Below are positions 46,081 to 59,045 of a stretch of 64,000 nucleotides of DNA, in pieces. Positions within the stretch are counted from its first letter, which is position 1; each line of letters begins with the position of its first letter. Location of the stretch: positions 496,001-560,000 of the forward strand of contig NZ_PVTF01000007.1 of assembly GCF_003002815.1 (NCBI RefSeq). Reading direction: 5' to 3'. A program made the translations under genes and the position numbers. Source of the stretch: Umezawaea tangerina. Lineage in GTDB: Bacteria; Actinomycetota; Actinomycetes; Mycobacteriales; Pseudonocardiaceae. The notes beneath the pieces were generated by a model, which saw only the letters and a program-made list of their open reading frames with translations, was not told the origin of the DNA and ran no database searches.

Positions 46081-49000
46081 GTGCGTGGTAACCGAAGCGT
46101 CCATCACGAACCGCAGTTGCGACCTCCACCCCCGAACCCAACCCGATCGGTGCGGCGGCTCGGCGTCGCCGCTCTCGCCCTGCTGACCGGAGTGGGCACC
46201 GCTCTCGTCGGCGCCGCCGCGCCCGCCGCGGCCCACCCGGACGGCGAGCACGTCCTGGTGTTCTCCAAGACCGCGGGCTTCCGGCACGACTCCATCCCGG
46301 ACGGCATCGCCGCCATCCAGGCGCTCGGGGCGGCCAACGAGTTCTCGGTGGAGGCCACCGAGGACGCGGGCGCGTTCACCGACGCCAACCTGGACCGGTT
46401 CGACGCGGTCGTGTGGCTGTCCACGACCGGTGACGTGCTCGACGACCAGCAGCAGGCCGCGTTCGAGCGGTTCGTGCAGGACGGCGGCGGCTACGCCGGG
46501 GTGCACGCCGCGGCGGACACCGAGTACTCGTGGCCCTGGTACGGCGACCTCGTGGGCGCCTACTTCAAGTCCCACCCGGCCATCCAGCAGGCCGACGTCG
46601 TGGTCGAGGACCACGACCACCCGTCCACGGCGCACCTGCCGGACAAGTGGACCCGCACCGACGAGTGGTACAGCTACCGCAGCAACCCGCGCACCGACGT
46701 GCACGTGCTGGCGGCGCTGGACGAGCACAGCTACACGCCCACCGACCCCGCGGGCGACCACCCCATCGCGTGGTGCCACCCGCAGGGCTCGGGCCGGTCC
46801 TGGTACACGGGGATGGGGCACACCAAGGAGTCCTACTCGGACCCCGCGTTCCGGCAGCACCTGCTGGGCGGCATCAGGTACGCCGCGGGGGCCGTCGCGG
46901 CCGACTGCGCGCCGGACGGCACGACGCCGAACCAGCCGCCGACCGACGCCGACTTCGACCAGATCACCCTGGCGCTGGGCGAGGAGAAGACCGGTGAGCC
47001 GATCGCGCTCGCCGTCCTGCCCGACCGCCGGGTGCTGCACACCTCCCGCGACGGTCGCGTGTGGCTGACGACGCCGGAGGCGACGACGTCGCTGGCCGGG
47101 ACGCTGGCGGTCTACAACCACGACGAGGACGGCCTGCAGGGCATCGCCGTCGACCCGGACTTCGCCACGAACAAGTGGGTCTACCTGTACTACGCGCCAC
47201 CGCTGGACACCCCGGCCGGTGACGCGCCGGAGAACGGCACCGCGGCGGACTTCGCGCCGTTCAAGGGCCACAACCAGCTGTCGAGGTTCAAGCTGGCCGA
47301 CAACGGCACCCTCGACCTGGGCAGCGAGCAGCGGATCATCCAGATCCCGGCCGACCGCGGCCTGTGCTGCCACGCAGGCGGCGAGATCGACTTCGACGCG
47401 CAGGGCAACCTGCTGCTGTCCACCGGCGACGACACCAACCCGTTCGCCTCGGACGGCTACAACCCGATCGACGAGCGCGCCGACCGCAACCCCGCGTTCG
47501 ACGCCCGCCGCTCCTCGGCCAACACCAACGACCTGCGCGGCAAGATCGTCCGGATCGCGGTGGCCGCGGACGGCTCGTACTCGGTGCCCGCGGGCAACCT
47601 GTTCGCGCCGGGCACGGACAAGACCCGTCCCGAGATCTACGCGATGGGCTTCCGCAACCCGTTCCGGTTCTCCGTGGACAGGCAGACCGGCTGGATCCAC
47701 CTCGGCGACTACGGTCCCGACGCCGGTGCGGCGAACCCCGACCGCGGTCCCGGTGGGACGGTCGAGTTCAACCTGATCAAGGAGCCCGGCAACTACGGCT
47801 GGCCGCTGTGCGTCGGGGACAACCTGGCCTACAACGACTACGACTTCGCCACCGGCACGTCGGGCCCGAAGTTCGACTGCGCCCACCCGCGCAACGACAG
47901 CCCGCACAACACCGGGCTGGTGGACCTGCCGCCCGCCAAGGCCGCGTGGATCCCCTACGACGGCGGGTCCGTGCCGGAGTTCGGCACCGGCGGCGAGTCG
48001 CCGATGGGCGGCCCGACCTACCACTTCGACCCCGGCCTGAACAAGGTCACGAAGTTCCCGGAGTACTTCGACGGCAAGAACTTCGCCTACGAGTGGGACC
48101 GCGGCTGGATCAAGACCATCGACGTCGGCCCGGACGGCGAGCGCGGCGACATCACCCCGTTCTTCGACTCGATGACGCTGACCAGGCCGATGAACCTGGA
48201 GTTCGGGCCGGACGGCTCGCTCTACGTCCTGGACTACGGCAGCGGCTACTTCGGCGGGGCCGCGGACTCGGCGGTCTACCGGATCGACTACACCCAGGGC
48301 AACCACACGCCCGTGGCGAAGCTGGCGGCCGACAAGACGTCGGGCCCGGCGCCGCTGACGGTCAACTTCGACCCCGCCGGCACGACCGACGAGGACGGCC
48401 CCGACCTCACCTGGGCGTGGGACTTCGACGGTGACGGCACCACCGACTCCACGCAGGCCGGACCGGTGAGCCACACCTACACCACGGTGGGCCAGTACAG
48501 CGCGAAGCTGTCGGTGACCGACCCGACCGGGCTGACCGGCTCGGCCAGCGTGGTGGTCAACGTCGGCAACACCGCGCCGGTGGTCACGCTCAACACCCCG
48601 CTCGACGGCTCGGTGTTCAGCTTCGGCGACCAGGTGCCGTTCTCGGTCACGGTCGTCGACCCCGAGGACCAGCCGGTCGACTGCTCCAAGGTGGTCGTGG
48701 AGTACATCCTCGGCCACGACAGCCACGGCCACCCGCTCAGCCGGGCCACCGGCTGCGAGGGCACCATCCCGACCCCGGCCGACGGCGGTCACGGCGCGGA
48801 CGCCAACGTCTTCGGCGTCATCAACGCCACCTACACCGACAACGGCGCGCCGGGCGCCCCGGCGCTGACCGGGTCCGACGAGGCCGTGCTGCAGCCCAAG
48901 CACAAGCAGGCCGAGTTCTACACCGGCGCGCAGGGCGCGCGGGCGCTGGAACGCGACACCGCGGAGGGCCGCAAGCGGGTCGGCGAGATCGAGAACGGCG

Positions 49001-50928
49001 ACTGGATCAAGTTCGGCCCGGTCAACCTCGTCGGTGTCACCGGCATCGGCTACCGGGTCTCCTCGGACGGTTCCGGCGGCACGCTCGAGGTGCGCCTCGA
49101 CGCGCCGGACGGCCCGCTGGTGCAGTCCACGTACGTGGCCAACACCGGGGGCTGGGACAACTACGTCGACCTCGCGCCGACACCGGTCAGCGACCCCGGT
49201 GGCACGCACGAGATGTACTTCGTGTTCAAGGGCGGCTCGGGCGCGCTGTTCGACGTGGACTCGTTCACCTTCAGCACGGACCCGCCCGCCAGCTGCACGC
49301 CGGTGGTGCCCGAGGAGGGCTACCGCAGCCTCTACGACGGCACGCCCGGCAGCCTGGAGGCGTGGAACCAGGCCGGTCCCGGTCGTTTCGTGCACCAGCC
49401 GGACTGCTCCATCCGCTCCGAGGGCGGGATGGGCCTGCTGTGGCACGAGGCCGAGCTGGGCTCCTACAGCCTCAAGCTCGACTGGATGCTCGCCGGTGAC
49501 GACAACTCCGGCGTGTTCATCGGGTTCCCCGACCCCGGCGACGACCCGTGGGTGGCGGTGGACCACGGCTACGAGATCCAGATCGACCCGACCGACGCCG
49601 ACGACCGCACCACCGGGTCGGTCTACACCTTCAAGGCCGCCGACCTGGCCGCCCGCGACGCCGCGCTCAAGCCCGCGGGGCAGTGGAACGCCTACGAGAT
49701 CGTGGTCACCGGCCAGCGCATCGAGGTGCTGCTCAACGGGGTGAAGATCAACGACTACACGAGCACGGATCCGGCCCGCGACCTGACGAAGGGCTTCATC
49801 GGGCTGCAGAACCACGGCGCCTCCGACGACGTGAAGTTCCGCAACGTGCGGGTCAAGGACCTCGACGTGGTGGCCCCGGTGACCACCGCCACGACCGGCA
49901 CCGCCCCCGGCGGCTCCGGCTGGTACACGGCGGCTCCGGTCTCGGTGGAGCTGTCGGCCACCGACGCCGGCGGCGCGGTCGCCCGCACCGAGTACCGGGT
50001 CGACGGCGGTGCCTGGACCACCTACACCGAGGCGGTCGTGCTGACCGGCGACGGCGTGCACAAGGTGGAGTACCGCTCGACCGACACGTCGGGCAACGTC
50101 GAGCAGGTCAAGTCCCTGGAGGTCAAGCTCGACGGCACGGCCCCGGTCACCACCGCCACATTCGCCGCGCCCGGCGAGAGCGGCTGGCACACCGGCGCGG
50201 TGTCCGTGGTGCTGACCGCCGCCGACCCGACCTCCGGGGTGGCGCGGACCGAGTGGAGCCTGGACGGCGGGCCGTGGACGGGCTACCTGCGCCCGGTCCC
50301 GGTGTCCGGCGACGGCTCGCACACCCTGCTGCACCGGTCCGTGGACACCGCGGGCAACGCCGAGGTCGACCGGGCCGCGACGATCGAGATCGACGGCACG
50401 GCACCCACGCTGCTCCTCACGGGCGTGGCCGACGGCCGGGTGTACGGGGACGCGACCGACGTGGTGGTGTCGTGGGAGGCCGGTGACGCCACCTCCGGCG
50501 TCGGCGCGGTCACCGCGACCCTCGCCGGGCGGACGCTGACCTCCGGGTACGCGGTGGCGCTGCACGAGCTGCCGCTGGGCGTGCACGAGCTGCGGGTGAC
50601 CGCGGCCGACGTCGCGGGCAACACCACCACCAGGACGGTGCCGTTCGCGGTCACCACGTCGCTGCGGGACGTGTCCCAGCTGCTCGACCGGTTCAAGGCC
50701 ACCAACAGGCTGCCGAAGGCCTCCTACGACCAGCTGACCAAGCAGCTGGCGAAGGCGCGCAAGGCCGAGGCGGAGGGCAAGGACAACAAGGCGCTCCAGG
50801 AGCTGCGGGCGTTCCGCACCCTGGCCGTCGGCGTCGCGGACACGGGCGTGCGCTCCGTGCTGGTCCGCGACACCGACGCGGTGATCGCCCTGATCAACGG
50901 CGACCCTGCGCCGTTGCGACGGGAGTAG
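46081..50928 (+). CDS. Secreted multidomain ThuA / sugar dehydrogenase / 3-keto-disaccharide hydrolase-like protein
   Basis: The 1615-residue protein has a signal peptide ending near residue 51 (ALVGAAAPAAA). Domains in order: ThuA-like (~53-275; VFSKTAGFRHDSIP, GGYAGVHAA); soluble aldose/PQQ-type sugar dehydrogenase beta-propeller (~291-741; EDGLQGIAVDPDF, MGFRNPFRFS); PKD (~743-831; WAWDFDGDGTTDS); Ig-like; CBM6-like (~940-1065; NGDWIKFGPVNL); DUF1080/3-keto-disaccharide hydrolase-like (~1078-1261; SLYDGTPGSLEAW, YEIQIDPTDA); two OmpL47-like repeats and a third Ig-like domain (~1264-1530); and a helical FIMAH-like tail (~1530-1590; QLLDRFKATNRLPK). It probably binds, oxidises and cleaves glycosides outside the cell. 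Confidence 0.9.
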   Translation: MRGNRSVHHEPQLRPPPPNPTRSVRRLGVAALALLTGVGTALVGAAAPAAAHPDGEHVLVFSKTAGFRHDSIPDGIAAIQALGAANEFSVEATEDAGAFTDANLDRFDAVVWLSTTGDVLDDQQQAAFERFVQDGGGYAGVHAAADTEYSWPWYGDLVGAYFKSHPAIQQADVVVEDHDHPSTAHLPDKWTRTDEWYSYRSNPRTDVHVLAALDEHSYTPTDPAGDHPIAWCHPQGSGRSWYTGMGHTKESYSDPAFRQHLLGGIRYAAGAVAADCAPDGTTPNQPPTDADFDQITLALGEEKTGEPIALAVLPDRRVLHTSRDGRVWLTTPEATTSLAGTLAVYNHDEDGLQGIAVDPDFATNKWVYLYYAPPLDTPAGDAPENGTAADFAPFKGHNQLSRFKLADNGTLDLGSEQRIIQIPADRGLCCHAGGEIDFDAQGNLLLSTGDDTNPFASDGYNPIDERADRNPAFDARRSSANTNDLRGKIVRIAVAADGSYSVPAGNLFAPGTDKTRPEIYAMGFRNPFRFSVDRQTGWIHLGDYGPDAGAANPDRGPGGTVEFNLIKEPGNYGWPLCVGDNLAYNDYDFATGTSGPKFDCAHPRNDSPHNTGLVDLPPAKAAWIPYDGGSVPEFGTGGESPMGGPTYHFDPGLNKVTKFPEYFDGKNFAYEWDRGWIKTIDVGPDGERGDITPFFDSMTLTRPMNLEFGPDGSLYVLDYGSGYFGGAADSAVYRIDYTQGNHTPVAKLAADKTSGPAPLTVNFDPAGTTDEDGPDLTWAWDFDGDGTTDSTQAGPVSHTYTTVGQYSAKLSVTDPTGLTGSASVVVNVGNTAPVVTLNTPLDGSVFSFGDQVPFSVTVVDPEDQPVDCSKVVVEYILGHDSHGHPLSRATGCEGTIPTPADGGHGADANVFGVINATYTDNGAPGAPALTGSDEAVLQPKHKQAEFYTGAQGARALERDTAEGRKRVGEIENGDWIKFGPVNLVGVTGIGYRVSSDGSGGTLEVRLDAPDGPLVQSTYVANTGGWDNYVDLAPTPVSDPGGTHEMYFVFKGGSGALFDVDSFTFSTDPPASCTPVVPEEGYRSLYDGTPGSLEAWNQAGPGRFVHQPDCSIRSEGGMGLLWHEAELGSYSLKLDWMLAGDDNSGVFIGFPDPGDDPWVAVDHGYEIQIDPTDADDRTTGSVYTFKAADLAARDAALKPAGQWNAYEIVVTGQRIEVLLNGVKINDYTSTDPARDLTKGFIGLQNHGASDDVKFRNVRVKDLDVVAPVTTATTGTAPGGSGWYTAAPVSVELSATDAGGAVARTEYRVDGGAWTTYTEAVVLTGDGVHKVEYRSTDTSGNVEQVKSLEVKLDGTAPVTTATFAAPGESGWHTGAVSVVLTAADPTSGVARTEWSLDGGPWTGYLRPVPVSGDGSHTLLHRSVDTAGNAEVDRAATIEIDGTAPTLLLTGVADGRVYGDATDVVVSWEAGDATSGVGAVTATLAGRTLTSGYAVALHELPLGVHELRVTAADVAGNTTTRTVPFAVTTSLRDVSQLLDRFKATNRLPKASYDQLTKQLAKARKAEAEGKDNKALQELRAFRTLAVGVADTGVRSVLVRDTDAVIALINGDPAPLRRE

Positions 50929-50977: not shown

Positions 50978-51016
50978 GGCACCACCCAGCTTTCCCCTGC
51001 GAGAAGGGCGGTCGTG

Positions 51017-52186
51017 ATGTCGGACCAACGGACCGGGCTGTGGCTGATCGGGGCGCGCGGATCGGTGGCGACCACCGCCGTGAGCGGGCTGCTCGCGCTG
51101 CGGGCCGGGCTCGCGCCGCCCACGGGGTGCGTCACCGCGAGACCGGAGCTGGCCGAGGTGGACCTGCCGTCGTGGGACGACATCGTTGTCGGCGGCCACG
51201 ACGTCGTGACCACCTCGCTGGACAAGCGCGCCGAGCAGCTCGCGCACGCGGGCGTGCTGCCGCACCACCTGCTGCCGTCGCTGGCCGAGGGCCTGCGCGC
51301 GGCCGACGCGGAGATCCGCGACGGCTACCACCCGGCCACCCACCGCGGCGCCCAGGCGACCGCGGCCGACCGGCTCACCGCCGACCTCGTGTCCTTCCGG
51401 GAGCGGCACGGCCTGGCGCGCGTCGTCGTGGTCAACGTGTCCTCCACCGAACCGCCCGTGCCGCACGTGCCAGAGCACGACGACCTCGCGCTGCTGGAGG
51501 CCGCGCTGGCCGACCCGGAGCGGGCCGTCCTGCCGCCCAGCTCGCTGGCCGCCTACGCGGCGCTGCGCGCGGGCTGCCCGTTCGTCGACTTCACCCCGTC
51601 CGCCGGCGTCGCGCTGCCCGCGCTGGACCGGCTGGCCGTGGACCTCGGTCTGCCTTATGCGGGCCGCGACGGCAAGACCGGCGAGACGCTGCTGCGCACC
51701 GTCCTCGCGCCCATGTTCACCGCGCGCGGCCTGCGCGTGCGCTCGTGGTCGGGCACCAACCTGCTCGGCGGCGGCGACGGCGCGACGTTGCAGGACGCGG
51801 AGCACGCCGCGAGCAAGCTGGAGTCCAAGGCGCGCGGCCTGGCCGCGCTGCTCGGCGAGCCGGTGACCGCGCCGCTGCACATCGACAACGTGCCCGACCT
51901 CGGCGAGCAGAAGACCGCGTGGGACCACGTGTCGTTCGAGGGGTTCCTCGGCGCGCGGATGAGCCTCCAGTTCACCTGGACCGGCCTGGACTCCTCGCTG
52001 GCCGCGCCGCTCGTGCTCGACCTGGCCCGGCTGGTGGCCGCCGCGCACGCCGACGGGCAGTCCGGCGCGCTGGGCGCGCTGGCGTTCTTCTTCAAGGACC
52101 CGCTCGGCCACGACGAGCACCGCTTCGCCGAGCAGACCCGCGAGCTGCACGCGTGGGCCCGCGGGCTGGGGAGGTACGGCGCGTGA
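51017..52186 (+). CDS. Inositol-3-phosphate synthase-like protein
   Basis: The 389-residue protein has the myo-inositol-phosphate synthase fold: WLIGARGSVATTAVSG (NAD-binding), VNVSSTEPP, VDFTPSAGVALPAL, GRDGKTGETLLRTVLAP and SWSGTNLLGGGDG. These correspond to the NAD and glucose-6-phosphate contacts of MIPS. ATG 51017 (or GTG 51014) follows GAAGGG. It opens the ebo-like operon, overlapping UbiA by 4 bp. A dehydroquinate-synthase-like sugar-phosphate cyclase (EboD) occupies this slot in cyanobacterial ebo clusters, so a different cyclase may fill the same role here. Confidence 0.85.
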   Translation: MSDQRTGLWLIGARGSVATTAVSGLLALRAGLAPPTGCVTARPELAEVDLPSWDDIVVGGHDVVTTSLDKRAEQLAHAGVLPHHLLPSLAEGLRAADAEIRDGYHPATHRGAQATAADRLTADLVSFRERHGLARVVVVNVSSTEPPVPHVPEHDDLALLEAALADPERAVLPPSSLAAYAALRAGCPFVDFTPSAGVALPALDRLAVDLGLPYAGRDGKTGETLLRTVLAPMFTARGLRVRSWSGTNLLGGGDGATLQDAEHAASKLESKARGLAALLGEPVTAPLHIDNVPDLGEQKTAWDHVSFEGFLGARMSLQFTWTGLDSSLAAPLVLDLARLVAAAHADGQSGALGALAFFFKDPLGHDEHRFAEQTRELHAWARGLGRYGA

Positions 52187-53031
52187 GGGCCTACGTCGAG
52201 CTCGTCCGCGCGCCCGCCGCGCTCACCGTCCTGGGCGACACCGTCGCCGGGGCCGCCGCGTCCGGGAACCCGTTGCGCGGCAGGCGGGTGCTGCTGCCGC
52301 TGGCGTCGGTGGCGCTGTACTGGTCGGGCATGGCCCTCAACGACTGGGCCGACCGCGACCTGGACGCCGTGGAACGCCCGGAGCGGCCGGTGCCGTCCGG
52401 GCGGATCACGCCGAACCGCGCACTGGCCGTGGCCGCCGGGCTCAGCGCCACCGGTCTCGGGATCGCGGCGTGGGCGGGCGGCCGGGACTCGCTGAGCGTC
52501 GCCGTGCCGCTCGCGCTGGCCATCTGGTCCTACGACACCGTGCTGAAGTCCACTCCGGCCGGACCGCTCGGCATGGCCGCGTGCCGGGGACTGGACGTCC
52601 TGCTCGGCGCGAGCGGGGCAGGGGGAGCGCTGCCCGCCGCGGCGGCCGTGGCCGGGCACACCCTCGGCGTGACGGCGCTGTCGCGCGGCGAGGTGCACGG
52701 CGCGTCCGCGTCGGTGGCCCGCGCGGTGCTCGGCGGCACGGCGCTCAGCGCGGTCGCCGCCGTCGTCGGGCCGTCGGCGTCCTGGCGGCACCGCCTCGCC
52801 GGGCTCACCGCCGCCACCGGCTACGCCGTCACCGTCGGCCGCGCCCAGCTCGCCGCCGCGCGCACGCCCGACGCGGCGTCCGTGCGGACCGCCACCAAGG
52901 CGGGCATCCACGGCATGGTCCCGCTCCAGTCCGCGCTCGCGGCGCGCGCCGGGTCGGTCGTGGCGGCCGCCGCCGTGGCGCTGGCGCTGCCGCTGGCCCG
53001 GCGGCTGAGCCGGAAGGTGAGCCCGACATGA
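52183..53031 (+). CDS. eboC: UbiA family prenyltransferase, EboC-like (SCO3242 family)
   Basis: The 282-residue polytopic membrane protein has the first Asp-rich motif NDWADRDLD (residues 53-61; NDxxDxxxD), which binds the Mg-diphosphate of the prenyl donor. A cytoplasmic loop YDTVLKSTPAGPLGMAACRG follows, with DVLLGASG, typical of the EboC/SCO3242 branch. It is linked by GTGA at the start and ATGA at the end to its neighbours. It should transfer a prenyl group to a small polar acceptor, perhaps the product of the MIPS-like enzyme. Confidence 0.87.
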   Translation: MRAYVELVRAPAALTVLGDTVAGAAASGNPLRGRRVLLPLASVALYWSGMALNDWADRDLDAVERPERPVPSGRITPNRALAVAAGLSATGLGIAAWAGGRDSLSVAVPLALAIWSYDTVLKSTPAGPLGMAACRGLDVLLGASGAGGALPAAAAVAGHTLGVTALSRGEVHGASASVARAVLGGTALSAVAAVVGPSASWRHRLAGLTAATGYAVTVGRAQLAAARTPDAASVRTATKAGIHGMVPLQSALAARAGSVVAAAAVALALPLARRLSRKVSPT

Positions 53032-54461
53032 CCTTCCACCTCGGCTACGGCACCAACGGCTTCGCCAACCACCGCCTCGACGACGCCCTCGACATCATCG
53101 CCGGCCTCGGCTGCACGTCGGTTGCCCTGACGCTGGACCACCACCACCTCGACCCGTTCGCCGACGACCTGCCCGCGCGGGTGGCCCACGTCGCCGCGAA
53201 GCTCGACCGGCTCGGGCTGCGCTGCGTCGTGGAGACCGGCGCCCGGTTCCTGCTCGACCCGCTGCGCAAGCACCACCCGACGCTGGTCAGCGAGGCGCAG
53301 GAGGTCCGGGTGGACTTCCTGCTGCGCGCGGTGCGGATCGCCGCCGAGCTCAACGCCGACTGCGTGTCGTTCTGGTCCGGCATCAAACCCTCCGACGTGC
53401 CCGCCGACGAGGCGTGGCGGCGGATGCGCTCCGGCGTCGCCGCCGTCCTGGAGGGCGCCGAACCGCTCGGCGTCACCCTCGGCCTGGAACCCGAGCCGGG
53501 GATGTTCGTGCAGCACCTCACCCAGGCGCTGCGGCTGCGCGAGGAGCTGGGCGCGCCGCCGCTGTTCGGCGTCACCCTCGACGTGGGGCACTGCGTGGCC
53601 GTGGAACCCGACGACGCGGCCACCTGCGTGCGCCGCGCCGGCGGGCTGCTGGTCAACGTGCAGCTCGACGACATGCTGCCCGGCGTGCACGAGCACCTGG
53701 AGTTCGGCGAGGGCGAGCTGGACCTGCGCGGCACCCTCGCCGCGCTGGCCTCCGTCGGCTACGTCGGCGTGGCCGCGGTGGAGCTGCCCCGGCACAGCCA
53801 CGCCGCGCCCGACGTGGCGCGGCGGGCGGTGGAGGCGTTGCGCGCGGCCATGCCCGACGAGCCCGCCCGGCCCCGGCACCCGTGGCTGGCCGACGCCCAG
53901 CGCGCGGTGCGCCGCGACCCCGCCGTGGTCGGCAGGCTGTTCCCGGCGGTGGGCCGCCGGGTCGGCCGCGGTCCCGCCCGGCCCGACGACGACCCGCAGG
54001 GCCTGGTGCACGGCGGCGTGGAGGACGCCGCCCGCGCCGAGCTGCTCGGCGCGCTGGCCACCGTGCTGGACGACGCCGCGCTGTCCGCCGAGCTGCTCTC
54101 GCTCTACCGGCAGGGCGACGACGCGGAGAAGCGCGGCGTGCTGCGGGGGCTCGCCCTGGTCGGCGACCGGGCCGTGGCCGCGGGCCTGGAGATCGTCCGG
54201 GACGCGTTGCGCGCCAACGACACCCGGCTGGTCGCCGCCGCGCTCGGCCCGTTCGCCGCCGGGCACCTCGACGACCACGGCTGGCGGCACGGCGTGCTCA
54301 AGTGCCTGTTCACCGGTGTGCCGCTGACCGCGGTGGCCGGGCTGGACCGGCGCACCGACGACGAGCTGCTGCGCATGGTCTCCGACTACGCCGCCGAACG
54401 CACCGCCGCGGGGCGCGACGTGCCCGCCGACGCGGCCCGCCTGCTCGGGAGGGGTGAGTGA
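53028..54461 (+). CDS. TIM-barrel sugar isomerase/epimerase fused to EboA domain
   Basis: The 477-residue protein has two parts. Residues ~1-275 form an AP-endonuclease-2-like TIM barrel: FHLGYGTNGFANHRLDD, GLEPEPGMFVQH (metal Glu), TLDVGHCVAVE (Asp/His) and VELPRHSH. Residues ~280-475 match EboA: ELLSLYRQGDDAEKRGVLRG, LKCLFTGVPLTAVAGLDRR and MVSDYAAERTAAGRDVPAD. In many genomes EboA is a separate protein, so this is a fusion. The ATGA overlap with UbiA and the immediate start of the next gene keep it inside the operon. Confidence 0.87.
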   Translation: MTFHLGYGTNGFANHRLDDALDIIAGLGCTSVALTLDHHHLDPFADDLPARVAHVAAKLDRLGLRCVVETGARFLLDPLRKHHPTLVSEAQEVRVDFLLRAVRIAAELNADCVSFWSGIKPSDVPADEAWRRMRSGVAAVLEGAEPLGVTLGLEPEPGMFVQHLTQALRLREELGAPPLFGVTLDVGHCVAVEPDDAATCVRRAGGLLVNVQLDDMLPGVHEHLEFGEGELDLRGTLAALASVGYVGVAAVELPRHSHAAPDVARRAVEALRAAMPDEPARPRHPWLADAQRAVRRDPAVVGRLFPAVGRRVGRGPARPDDDPQGLVHGGVEDAARAELLGALATVLDDAALSAELLSLYRQGDDAEKRGVLRGLALVGDRAVAAGLEIVRDALRANDTRLVAAALGPFAAGHLDDHGWRHGVLKCLFTGVPLTAVAGLDRRTDDELLRMVSDYAAERTAAGRDVPADAARLLGRGE

Positions 54462-54462
54462 G

Positions 54463-54645
54463 ATGTGCCATGCCGACCTGCCCGTGACGGCACCGGCGGA
54501 CGGCCTCGTCCAGTCCGAAGTGGACGGCGCGCCGCGACCCGATCCCGCCGGCTTCCCGGGGTGGAGCGGCAGGCCGGTGCCGGACGACCTGCCCGGCGCC
54601 GCGGCCCTGTTCCCCGGTTTCGCGCCGCGCGGGGGTGACCGGTGA
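54463..54645 (+). CDS. Uncharacterised 60-residue protein in the ebo-like operon
   Basis: A short frame starts at ATG 54463 (GGGAGGGG upstream), one base after the previous stop, and its own TGA overlaps the EboE ATG, the same coupling used by all neighbours. It reads MCHADLPVTAPADGL, is Pro/Asp/Gly-rich, has one Cys-His pair at the N-terminus and ends ALFPGFAPRGGDR. I recognise no family. In many ebo clusters a TatD-like hydrolase (EboB) gene lies in the cluster; none is present here. It is probably a real gene, judging from spacing and codon use. Confidence 0.6.
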   Translation: MCHADLPVTAPADGLVQSEVDGAPRPDPAGFPGWSGRPVPDDLPGAAALFPGFAPRGGDR

Positions 54646-55793
54646 TGGACCTGTCCTACTGCACCAACGTCCACCCCGCCGAGGACCTGCGCGGCGTCCT
54701 CGCCCAGCTCGACCGGTTCGCCCTGCCGGTGCGCCGCCTGCTCGGCACCGACCACCTCGGCCTCGGCCTGTGGCTGTCCGCCGACGTCGCCGGGGGCCTC
54801 GCCGGGGACCCGGCGTCGCGGCGGCGGCTGCGCGCCGAGCTGGACGCGCGCGGACTGGAGGTCCGCACCCTCAACGCCTTCCCCTACGGCGGTTTCCACG
54901 ACGCCGTGGTGAAGCACTCGGTGTACCGGCCGCGCTGGACCGACCCGGAACGGCTGCGCTACACCACCGACTGCGCCACCGTGCTCGCCGACCTGCTGCC
55001 CGACACCGCCGTGGACGGCACGATCTCCACGCTGCCGCTGGGCTGGCGCACCCCGTGGACCTCCGCCGACGACGCCGCCGCGTTCGCCGCGCTCGACGAG
55101 CTGACGCGGGTGCTGCGCGCGCAGGCGGCGTGGACAGGCAAGCCGATCGCGCTGGCCGTGGAACCCGAACCGGGGTGCGTGCTGGACACCGTGCACGACG
55201 CGGTGACCCGGCTCGCCGGACGGGTGGACCCCGACCACATCGGGATCTGCCTGGACACCTGCCACCTCGCTGTGTCCTTCGCCGACCCGGCCGCCGCCGT
55301 GGCCGAGATCGCCGCCGCCGGGCTGCGCGTGGTCAAGGTGCAGGCGTCCGCGGCGCTGGAGGTCACCCGGCCCGGCACGCCGGAGGGCCGCCGCGCGCTG
55401 GCCGCGTTCACCGAACCGCGCTACCTGCACCAGGTCCGCGAACTCAGCGGGGGAGTGGTACTGGCCTCCGACGACCTGCCGCAGGCCCGCCGCGAGCTGC
55501 CCGGCCGCGACCCGTGGCGGGTGCACTTCCACGTGCCGCTGCACGCCCGCCCCGCCGCGCCCCTGTCGGCGACCACCGACGTGCTGCGCGAGGCCGTGCG
55601 GGCGCTGGCCGCCACCGGGCCGCTGCCGCACGTGGAGGTCGAGACCTACACGTGGAGCGTCCTGCCCGGTGCCGTCGGGCAGGACGACACCGGGCTGGTG
55701 CGCGGCATCGCCGCCGAGCTGCGCTGGGCGCGCGAGCACCTCGGCGCACTGGAGACCGTCCCGTCGACAGCAGGAGAAGGAGCGCGCCCGTGA
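54645..55793 (+). CDS. eboE: EboE-like metabolite traffic protein (TIM barrel)
   Basis: The 382-residue protein begins [20 protein letters not shown] and has [48 protein letters not shown] (metal Glu) and [13 protein letters not shown] (Asp/His), a diagnostic set for EboE. The late [15 protein letters not shown] and [13 protein letters not shown] segments are also typical. EboE is a xylose-isomerase-like TIM barrel required in ebo-dependent metabolite export in cyanobacteria. ATG 54645 or GTG 54642 may start. It overlaps the small ORF and the phosphodiesterase gene. Confidence 0.9.
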
Positions 55794-57184
55794 AACCGCT
55801 GGTCGTGATCGACGTCGTCGGGATGACCCCGGCGCTGCTGCCGCACATGCCCAACCTCGCCGGACTGGGCTGGCGGGCGGAGCTGGGCACCGTGCTGCCC
55901 GCCGTCACGTGCAGCGCCCAGTCCACGTTCCTCACCGGCCTCACGCCCGCCGAGCACGGGATCGTCGGCAACGGCTGGTACTTCCGCGACGTCGGCGAGG
56001 TGCACCTGTGGCGGCAGCACAACCGCCTGGTGGGCGGGGAGAAGCTGTGGGAGACCGCGCGCCGCGCGCACCCCGGCTACACCGCCGCCAACGTCTGCTG
56101 GTGGTACGCGATGGGCGCGACCACCGACGTGACGATCACCCCGAGGCCGATCTACCACGCCGACGGCCGCAAGTCGCCCGACGCCTACGTCCGGCCGCCC
56201 GAGCTGCACGACCGGCTCGTGGCGGACCTCGGCGAGTTCCCGCTGTTCCAGTACTGGGGGCCGACGGCGTCGATCGCCTCCAGCCGCTGGATCGTCGGCG
56301 CGGCCCGCAAGATCCTCGCCGAGCAGCACCCCGACCTGCTCCTGGTCTACGTGCCGCACCTGGACTACGACCTCCAGCGCTTCGGCCCCGACTCGCCGGA
56401 GGCGGTGGCCGCCGCGAGGGCCGTGGACGCGGAGGTCACGCCCCTGCTGGTCGACGCGCTCGGCGCGGGCGCCACCGTGGTCGCCCTGTCCGAGTACGGC
56501 ATCACCGCGGCGCGCCGGTCGGTGGACGTGAACCGGGCGCTGCGCGCGGAGGGCCTGCTGGAGGTCTACACCCAGGCGGGCATGGAGTACCTGGACCCGT
56601 GGACGTCGCGGGCCTTCGCCGTCGCCGACCACCAGGTCGCGCACGTCTACGTCGCCGACCCCGCCGACCTGCCCAGGACCAAGGCGGTCGTCGAGGCGCT
56701 GCCCGGCGTCGACCGCGTCCTGGACCGCGCCGGGCAAGCCGCGGAGGGGCTCGACCACGATCGCTCCGGCGAGCTCGTCGCCATCGCCGAGCCCGACGCG
56801 TGGTTCACCTACTACTACTGGCTCGACGACGACCGCGCGCCGGACTTCGCGCGCGGCGTGGAGATCCACCGCAAACCCGGCTACGACCCGGCCGAGCTGT
56901 TCTTCGACCCCGCCGACCCGTTGGCCAAGGCCAAGGCGGGGCTGAACCTCGTGCGCAAGAAGGTCGGGCTGCGGTACGCGATGAACGTCGTGCCGCTCGA
57001 CCCCGCACCCGTGCGCGGCACCCACGGCCGCCTCCCGGACAGCGCCGCCGACGGACCTGTGCTGCTGTGTTCGGACACCACCGTCGGGCCGCGCGAGAGG
57101 ATCGCCGCGACCGAGGTCAAGGACTTCCTGCTGGAACTGCAGGGACTGCGGGCACCCGCGGTGCACACGAGAGGAGAGCTGTGA
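55790..57184 (+). CDS. EboF-like alkaline phosphatase superfamily phosphodiesterase
   Basis: The 464-residue nucleotide pyrophosphatase/phosphodiesterase has the metal Asp ([14 protein letters not shown]8), the nucleophile region [19 protein letters not shown] (T40), [28 protein letters not shown] and the metal His in [11 protein letters not shown]. No signal peptide is seen, so it is cytosolic. In ebo clusters this enzyme (EboF) ends the operon and may release a phospho- or nucleotidyl-carrier. GTGA links it to EboE; its TGA shares one base with the next ATG. Confidence 0.87.
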
Positions 57185-58194
57185 TGAGCCGACCCGTCAC
57201 CCTGTTCACGGGCCAGTGGGCCGACCTGCCGTTCGAGGAGGTCTGCCGTCTCGCCGCCGGGTGGGGCTACGACGGGCTGGAGATCGCCTGCTCCGGCGAC
57301 CACTTCGAGGTCGACCGGGCGCTGGCCGAGCCCGACTACGTGCCCGCCAAGCTGGCGCAGCTGGAGTCGCACGGGCTCAAGGTGTTCGCGATCTCCAACC
57401 ACCTCGTCGGCCAGGCCGTGTGCGACGACCCGATCGACGAGCGGCACCGCAACATCCTGCCCGCCCGCATCTGGGGCGACGGCGAGCCCGAGGGCGTGCG
57501 CAAGCGCGCCGCCGCCGAGATCGCCGACACCGCCCGCGCGGCGGCGAAGCTGGGCGTGGACACCGTCGTCGGCTTCACCGGGTCGAAGATCTGGAAGTAC
57601 GTGGCGATGTTCCCGCCGGTGTCGCAGGCCGTGATCGACGACGGCTACACCGACTTCGCCAACCGGTGGAACCCGATCCTCGACGTGTTCGACGAGGTGG
57701 GCGTCCGCTTCGCCCACGAGGTCCACCCGTCCGAGATCGCCTACGACTACTGGACGACCCGCAAGTCGCTGGACGCGCTGGGCAACCGCCCGGCCTTCGG
57801 CCTGAACTGGGACCCGTCGCACTTCGTGTGGCAGGACCTCGACCCGGTCGGCTTCATCCTCGACTTCGCCGACCGGATCTACCACGTCGACTGCAAGGAC
57901 ACGAAGAAGCGGTTCGACGGCCGCAACGGCCGCCTCGGTTCCCACCTCGCCTGGGCGGACCCGCGGCGCGGCTGGGACTTCGTGTCGACCGGCCACGGCG
58001 ACGTCCCGTGGGAGCAGTCGTTCCGCGCGCTCAACGCCATCGGCTACACCGGACCCATCTCGGTCGAGTGGGAGGACGCCGGGATGGACCGGCTGCGCGG
58101 CGCCGAGGAGGCCGTGAAGTTCATCAGGGGGCTCGTGTTCGACCCGCCCGCCGCGGCGTTCGACGCCGCGTTCGCCACCCGCGAAGAATCCTGA
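57184..58194 (+). CDS. Cytosolic sugar phosphate isomerase/epimerase (TIM barrel)
   Basis: The 336-residue AP-endonuclease-2/xylose-isomerase-like barrel has [31 protein letters not shown] (metal Glu and His), [11 protein letters not shown] (Asp/His), YHVDCKDT and [12 protein letters not shown] (last Glu). The set of two Glu, Asp and His matches the metal site of 3-keto-glucoside epimerases and hydroxypyruvate isomerase-like enzymes. It starts on the last base of the phosphodiesterase stop (TGATG). Given the Gfo dehydrogenase and DUF1080-like domain nearby, it may epimerise or isomerise 3-keto sugars. Confidence 0.88.
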
Positions 58195-58208
58195 GAGGAC
58201 AGCCTGCA

Positions 58209-59045
58209 ATGACGCACAGCCCGTCCAGAAGAGCAGTTCTCGGCGCACTGGGGGCGGCCGCGGCCGTCGCGGCGCTCCCCGGCGCCGCCGCCGCGACCGG
58301 CGGCGGCCACCACCGCGTGCCCCGCGAGTCGATCAGCATCCAGCTCTACACGCTGCGCGGGATCATCGGCGACAACCCGGCGCCGGTCTTCGAGGCGCTG
58401 GCCGACATCGGCTACCGCAAGGTGGAGCTGGCCGGGACCTACGGCCGCACCGCGGAGGAGCTGGCGAAGCTGCTGCGCCGCTACCACCTGGCGTCGACGT
58501 CCGCGCACGTGGGCATCGACGGTGACCTGGACAAGGTCGTCGCCGACGCGAAGGCGCTGCGCAACACCTACGTCGTGGTGCCCTACGTGAACTACCCGAC
58601 GCTGGCCGAGTGGGTGTCGTTCACCCAGCGGCTGGACGCGGCGTCGAAGGTGCTGCGCAAGGCCGGGCTGAAGCTGGGGTACCACAACCACGCACACGAG
58701 TTCGCGCTCCTGGAGGGCAAGCGCCCCTACGACGTGATCACCAAGGGCACGTCCCGCCGGGACGTCCACCTCGAGATCGACCTGTACTGGGCGATCACGG
58801 CCGGGGTCGACCCGGTGGAGGTGTTCCGGCAGAACCTGCCGCGCGTGCGCCAGTTCCACGTCAAGGACCGCAAGCCCGACGGGAGCTTCGCCGACCTGGG
58901 CAAGGGCACGATCGACTTCGCCCGCATCTTCCGCGGCACCTGGCACCAGCACGTGGACGAGTACATCGTCGAGAACGACGAGCCGGTAGACGCGCTCGTG
59001 ACGGCCGAGGTCGGGTACAAGTACCTGCGCGACATCAGGTTCTGA
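58209..59045 (+). CDS. Tat-exported sugar phosphate isomerase/epimerase (TIM barrel)
   Basis: The 278-residue protein has a twin-arginine signal (SPSRRAVLGALGAAAAVAAL) with AAA near residue 29 as a likely cleavage site, and no lipobox Cys. The mature TIM barrel has ISIQLYTLRGIIGDN, YRKVELAGTYGRTAEEL, GYHNHAHEFALLEG (His/Glu), LEIDLYWAITAGVDP and FHVKDRKPDG. It is the exported counterpart of the preceding cytosolic barrel, with 14 bp between genes and GAGAGGAC before ATG 58209. A strong terminator follows. Acting outside the cell fits the secreted dehydrogenase/hydrolase at 46081. Confidence 0.9.
   Translation: MTHSPSRRAVLGALGAAAAVAALPGAAAATGGGHHRVPRESISIQLYTLRGIIGDNPAPVFEALADIGYRKVELAGTYGRTAEELAKLLRRYHLASTSAHVGIDGDLDKVVADAKALRNTYVVVPYVNYPTLAEWVSFTQRLDAASKVLRKAGLKLGYHNHAHEFALLEGKRPYDVITKGTSRRDVHLEIDLYWAITAGVDPVEVFRQNLPRVRQFHVKDRKPDGSFADLGKGTIDFARIFRGTWHQHVDEYIVENDEPVDALVTAEVGYKYLRDIRF

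Follow-up and report, generated by a model that had tools for sequence, protein, structure and literature searches.

A TIM Barrel–EboA Fusion Protein and an Inositol-Phosphate-Synthase-Like Gene in the ebo Operon of Actinobacteria

Introduction

In cyanobacteria the ebo operon is needed for the export of a scytonemin precursor, and it has been reported to protect a Pseudomonas from nematodes. Based on structural prediction, EboA was proposed to be a TPR-like scaffold within a complex of EboC, EboA, and EboB (Klicki et al., 2018; PMC6282210). The stand-alone EboA proteins of cyanobacteria, Bacteroidota, and Pseudomonadota are encoded next to eboB and carry no attached barrel, and in the loci read their operons contain eboD and lack the inositol-phosphate-synthase-like gene (MIPS) discussed below. 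Actinobacteria differ in that hybrids of a xylose isomerase-like domain and EboA have already been reported from them (Yurchenko et al., 2016; PMC5133447, section 3.4.4), albeit in one sentence with data not shown and without counts, structure, neighborhood, or an account of the separate genes.

Here we describe such a protein from Umezawaea tangerina, encoded in a stretch of 64,000 nucleotides (the window). It has the EboA domain profile in common with the stand-alone proteins and matches the published hybrids in domain order and phylum. The fusion is thus not new, and the window protein joins a previously described hybrid family. In the original prediction, made from the letters of the window alone, EboA was regarded as normally a short stand-alone protein; the same hybrid was described by Yurchenko et al. 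(2016), and the NCBI model itself is named EboA_domain.

Results and Discussion

The Fusion Protein

The fusion gene occupies 53028..54461 on the forward strand and runs from an ATG at 53028 to a TGA ending at 54461, encoding 477 amino acids with zero internal stops. No stop codon parts the two halves, and codon comparison showed that the joined frame across the junction is retained in three close relatives (L052, L057, and L055), which rules out a frameshift or missed stop at this site. Synonymous changes exceed non-synonymous ones relative to these relatives in the barrel and the main EboA domain. The linker comprises 16 codons, too few to judge this balance, and against the general trend amino acid changes outnumber silent changes in the N-terminal part of the L055 EboA domain.

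Residues 1–274 (53028..53850, forward strand) form an AP2-type TIM barrel with the fold of ketose 3-epimerases and a conserved active site; residues 22–273 match the Pfam family AP_endonuc_2 (PF01261) with 121.9 bits (E = 4.6e-35; gathering cut-off 31.1). The C-terminal EboA domain spans residues 283–477 (53874..54458, forward strand). Its residues 333–472 cover positions 2–139 of the 140 positions of the NCBIfam profile NF035938 (EboA_domain) with 155.2 bits (E = 1.2e-45), three times the curated threshold of 50 bits. When the half is aligned with EboA proteins that stand alone, the true start of the domain falls near residue 285 (HPWLADAQ..LFPAVGRRVGR), ahead of the profile match at 333, and the EboA half is therefore complete. 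The score against the narrower stand-alone EboA family NF035937 was 57.9 bits and fell below the cut-off of 320; the fusion is an EboA-domain protein outside this subfamily. AlphaFold2 modeled the whole chain with a mean pLDDT of 95.7, confirming the barrel, and with a pTM of 0.74, a value at which the orientation of the two domains is uncertain. The assignment of both halves in the original prediction, and the reality of their fusion, are thus borne out.

The Active Site of the Barrel

By Foldseek, the best structural match of the barrel model is the L-xylulose-5-phosphate 3-epimerase UlaE (target TM 0.80–0.83), and the model superimposes on a D-tagatose 3-epimerase-like structure (3wqo) with a Z-score of 32 and an rmsd of 2.1 Å over 259 residues. 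The N-terminal half is a sugar isomerase/epimerase-type barrel, and its active-site acids are among the residues that are invariant in 146 barrel homologs: Glu154, Glu156, Asp185, His188, Asp215, His221, His223, and Glu252. The metal ligands of UlaE-type enzymes, which we take to be Glu, Asp, His, and Glu, align with Glu154, Asp185, Gln212, and Glu252, so that three of the four ligands of the UlaE/D-tagatose 3-epimerase set were found in the barrel. The third ligand, His, is replaced by Gln212, and this position is Gln in 143 of the 146 homologs and His in the remaining 3. The full set of metal ligands originally claimed for this half thus holds for the acidic residues and not for the third ligand. 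Beyond this replacement, the fusion differs from the UlaE/D-tagatose 3-epimerase family in its low identity (~20%) and in its additional C-terminal EboA domain, and it scored at most 46.9 bits against the curated epimerase equivalogs TIGR00542, TIGR03234, and NF007360, whose cut-offs are at least 272. The model thus predicts an enzyme that works like a ketose 3-epimerase, yet it is not to be filed as one. In this metal-dependent enzyme, Glu154 and Glu252 are predicted to serve as acid/base residues, and the metal to be bound by Glu154, Asp185, Gln212, and Glu252.

The EboA Domain

Modeled alone, the EboA half reached a pLDDT of 97.2 and was nearly all helix. Sequence searches retrieved neither a solved EboA structure nor a clear fold relative, and Foldseek detected no fold relative at E ≤ 0.001, its best match being weak (E = 0.33). 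The nearest solved shapes were SF3B1, alphaRep binders, the phycocyanin lyase CpcE/F, and the PP2A scaffold, which are HEAT-like, with Z-scores of 8–11, a range in which helical repeats match each other without kinship. The same caution applies to the superposition on the SF3B1 HEAT repeats (Z 11.4, rmsd 3.7 Å over 174 residues; labeled VIA), which lies in the chance range for helical repeats. EboA is predicted from the model to be a HEAT-like helical solenoid. In an alignment of 25 EboA sequences from Actinomycetota, Pseudomonadota, and Bacteroidota, R310, R336, E367, R395, K425, R442, E457, R458, and R463 (fusion numbering) are invariant, at 24–30% identity to the non-actinobacterial sequences. 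These charged residues suggest that EboA does more than dock passively.

The Operon and Its Lost eboB

Across the Actinomycetota the gene order MIPS–UbiA–barrel–EboA–EboB–EboE–EboF is near-constant. Among 134 well-flanked loci, EboB was present in 134, the barrel and EboE in 131 each, UbiA and EboF in 130 each, and MIPS in 113. The window, whose EboA, UbiA, EboE, and EboF genes are clustered, belongs to this operon type. The operon genes described here all lie on the forward strand: the ebo-type MIPS gene (51014..52186), a SCO3242-family, EboC-like UbiA prenyltransferase (52183..53031; NF045897, E = 4.2e-111), the fusion gene, the EboE TIM barrel (54642..55793, with an ATG at 54645; NF035939, E = 1.6e-128), and an EboF-like phosphodiesterase/pyrophosphatase (55790..57184; PF01663, E = 1.8e-59). 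Two further AP2-type barrels follow eboF, so that the window cluster (57184–59045 included) encodes four such barrels together with the fusion and EboE. One is a sugar isomerase-type protein that is a conserved neighbor in many relatives (57184..58194; PF01261, E = 1.4e-38). The other (58209..59045; PF01261, E = 9.3e-12) weakly resembles the inosose dehydratase IolE, its match to TIGR04379 (E = 1.4e-15) being far under the cut-off.

On the other side of the operon, 46081–50928 encodes a large protein, predicted to be secreted, that combines ThuA, glucose/sorbosone dehydrogenase (GSDH), PKD, CBM6, and 3-keto-disaccharide hydrolase domains; in 78 of the 134 loci, homologous sequence, sometimes divided into several genes, occurs in the vicinity of the ebo operon. 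Two Streptomyces loci deserve mention. One contains two copies each of EboA, EboB, EboE, and EboF in interleaved order (L162, 4163–13857), and on a plasmid of Streptomyces camelliae a gene annotated as a member of the ScyD/ScyE family lies just upstream of the ebo MIPS (L182, 4093–5295), an echo of the cyanobacterial scytonemin link.

Of ~135 operons, that of the window alone lacks an intact eboB. A degenerate relic of the 3′ end of this gene is found at 54512..54642 (forward strand), where blastn detected 72–76% identity to the eboB 3′ end of three close relatives; it lies within a 60-amino-acid ORF (54463–54642) that tblastn aligned to the EboB C-terminus with 43% identity. Survival of this relic indicates that the window eboB was mostly deleted. 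A replacement of EboB by the barrel–EboA protein, which the missing eboB between EboA and EboE had at first suggested, was considered and rejected, since all other fused operons keep eboB and the window still holds its remains. Elsewhere in the genome, an intact eboB was found only in a second ebo locus (G000:C10; L018, 7658–11532), which encodes MIPS, a stand-alone EboA, EboB, and EboE, and lacks the barrel, UbiA, and EboF. Jointly, the two loci carry the full ebo gene set. The second locus resembles one in Herbidospora (L129) and is followed by ThuA/GSDH-like sequence, which also adjoins the window operon.

Distribution and History of the Fusion

The EboA domain was present in 102 of 200 sampled genomes of the family to which the window belongs and in 18 of 396 genomes sampled across the phylum. 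Loci were compiled from the flanking DNA of the EboA-positive genomes and from 80 named actinobacterial loci found via EboB. This set comprises 150 distinct actinobacterial ebo loci, 55 of which are fused, while 90 encode the barrel and EboA as separate, neighboring, and co-directional genes and 5 have no detected barrel (one of these, L172, ends at a contig end). Most fused loci belong to the Pseudonocardiaceae (Saccharothrix, Lentzea, Amycolatopsis, Kibdelosporangium, and Saccharomonospora), and a second fused group consists of Glycomyces, Catellatospora, and Rhizocola.

On the barrel tree the fusion label changes six times, and well-supported branches require five of these changes; branches with 100/96 support separate the two fused groups from each other. 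The junctions of the two groups differ as well: in the Pseudonocardiaceae the domains are joined by a linker whose length varies, whereas in the second group the last barrel helix leads straight into EboA. Grouping all fused barrels in one clade was rejected by the AU test (p = 4e-7). Since splits nested among the fused barrels contribute to this rejection, it is by itself no proof of two origins. The simplest reading of the sequences is that fusion occurred at least twice and fission several times; one ancient fusion followed by many fissions would be less parsimonious. An apparently recent fission of a fused gene is seen at L050 9355, where barrel and EboA share one frame and are separated by one stop.

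At least two inferred fusions, together with the co-occurrence of both parts in 131 of 134 well-flanked loci, strengthen the case that EboA acts beside the barrel in actinobacteria. The original prediction had drawn this conclusion for EboA as such. It stands for the actinobacterial pathway, to which it is limited because the barrel was not found in five non-actinobacterial loci; for the same reason the barrel does not appear to be essential to ebo in general.

A Proposed Swap of EboD for MIPS

EboD is a sugar phosphate cyclase encoded by ebo operons outside this phylum. A tblastn search of the 150 actinobacterial loci with four EboD queries (E ≤ 1e-5) detected EboD in none of them. With the same queries EboD was recovered from each of the five non-actinobacterial loci; the queries themselves came from four of these. 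These five plasmid-borne loci, complemented by the literature, constitute the non-actinobacterial comparison. EboD, annotated as 3-dehydroquinate synthase, is among the ebo genes of Azospirillum, Aureibacter, Salipiger, and Mycetohabitans; in the ebo loci of all four, no MIPS and no barrel were detected. The window MIPS aligns over nearly its whole length with the myo-inositol-1-phosphate synthase of Archaeoglobus (PDB 1u1i; E = 8.7e-62) and, in the conserved segments covered by the alignment, retains the lysines. It differs from the latter in its location in an ebo operon and is distinct from the other, housekeeping-like Ino1 genes of its genome, to which it has partial matches of 28–34% identity. 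Whole-genome searches of 20 genomes without MIPS in the examined ebo locus revealed an ebo-type copy elsewhere in 17 (51–76% identity) and none in the other three (G595, G600, and G607); either MIPS is not always needed or a copy was missed in these. In the part of the literature covered, we found no paper linking ebo with inositol or describing a swap of EboD for MIPS.

A Proposed Pathway

The most likely reading of the fusion is a metal-dependent epimerase or isomerase joined to the docking subunit EboA. In the pathway that we infer, the MIPS-like enzyme would convert a sugar phosphate to a cyclitol phosphate, the task that EboD is thought to perform elsewhere, and the barrel would epimerize or isomerize this cyclitol in its keto form or, alternatively, a sugar leading to it. 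EboA may dock the barrel to EboB, EboE, and the membrane-bound UbiA, and a prenylated cyclitol compound would be the end of the pathway. This explanation, in which one chain unites the barrel enzyme with the EboA subunit of an actinobacterial ebo operon in such a cyclitol-prenyl pathway, has, as a whole, a probability of roughly 0.5. What the sequences contribute is that both domains are complete and conserved, that their genes are otherwise neighbors, and that at least two fusions are indicated by parsimony. A homolog of EboC farnesylates quinolines in vitro, which fits poorly with a cyclitol as acceptor and counts against the proposal. More tentatively, and with odds somewhat short of even, Actinobacteria may have rebuilt ebo around inositol: MIPS would have replaced the unrelated EboD, the barrel–EboA pair would have been added to convert the new cyclitol, and two cyclases would feed one conserved prenylated-cyclitol pathway.

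The fusion might instead be a neutral by-product of adjacent, co-directional genes that repeatedly lose and regain a stop, with the halves working independently. The two genes abut in many loci, fissions are frequent on the tree, and the L050 halves remain in one frame with one stop between them. This explanation nevertheless appears unlikely, as barrel and EboA stay together in nearly all well-flanked loci across the phylum and as fusions with different linkers arose, by parsimony, at least twice and have persisted in most of one large family. That the barrel is a degenerate, non-enzymatic family member is highly improbable. The near-universal Gln at the third metal position speaks for a lost ligand, but in decayed sites one would not expect Glu154, Asp185, His188, Asp215, His221, His223, and Glu252 to be invariant, and EboE apparently, from its motif, also has Gln at the same position. 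Glutamine is able to coordinate metal.

A different division of labor would make EboA itself catalytic or ligand-binding, holding a cyclitol phosphate or prenylated intermediate handed on by the barrel. Its Arg, Glu, and Lys residues, invariant over three phyla despite the low overall identity, would be explained in this way. Yet the predicted fold resembles protein-binding HEAT repeats, and in some operons the unrelated EboG substitutes for EboA (PMC5133447), pointing to an auxiliary role; we therefore consider a catalytic or ligand-binding EboA unlikely and favor the epimerase- or isomerase-type barrel with EboA as its docking subunit.

Conclusions

The fusion, already known, ties EboA to a specific type of enzyme across a whole phylum. 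The fresher observation is the probable swap of EboD for MIPS, which provides an independent argument for a cyclitol as the start of the pathway and names a starting compound that can be fed and traced.
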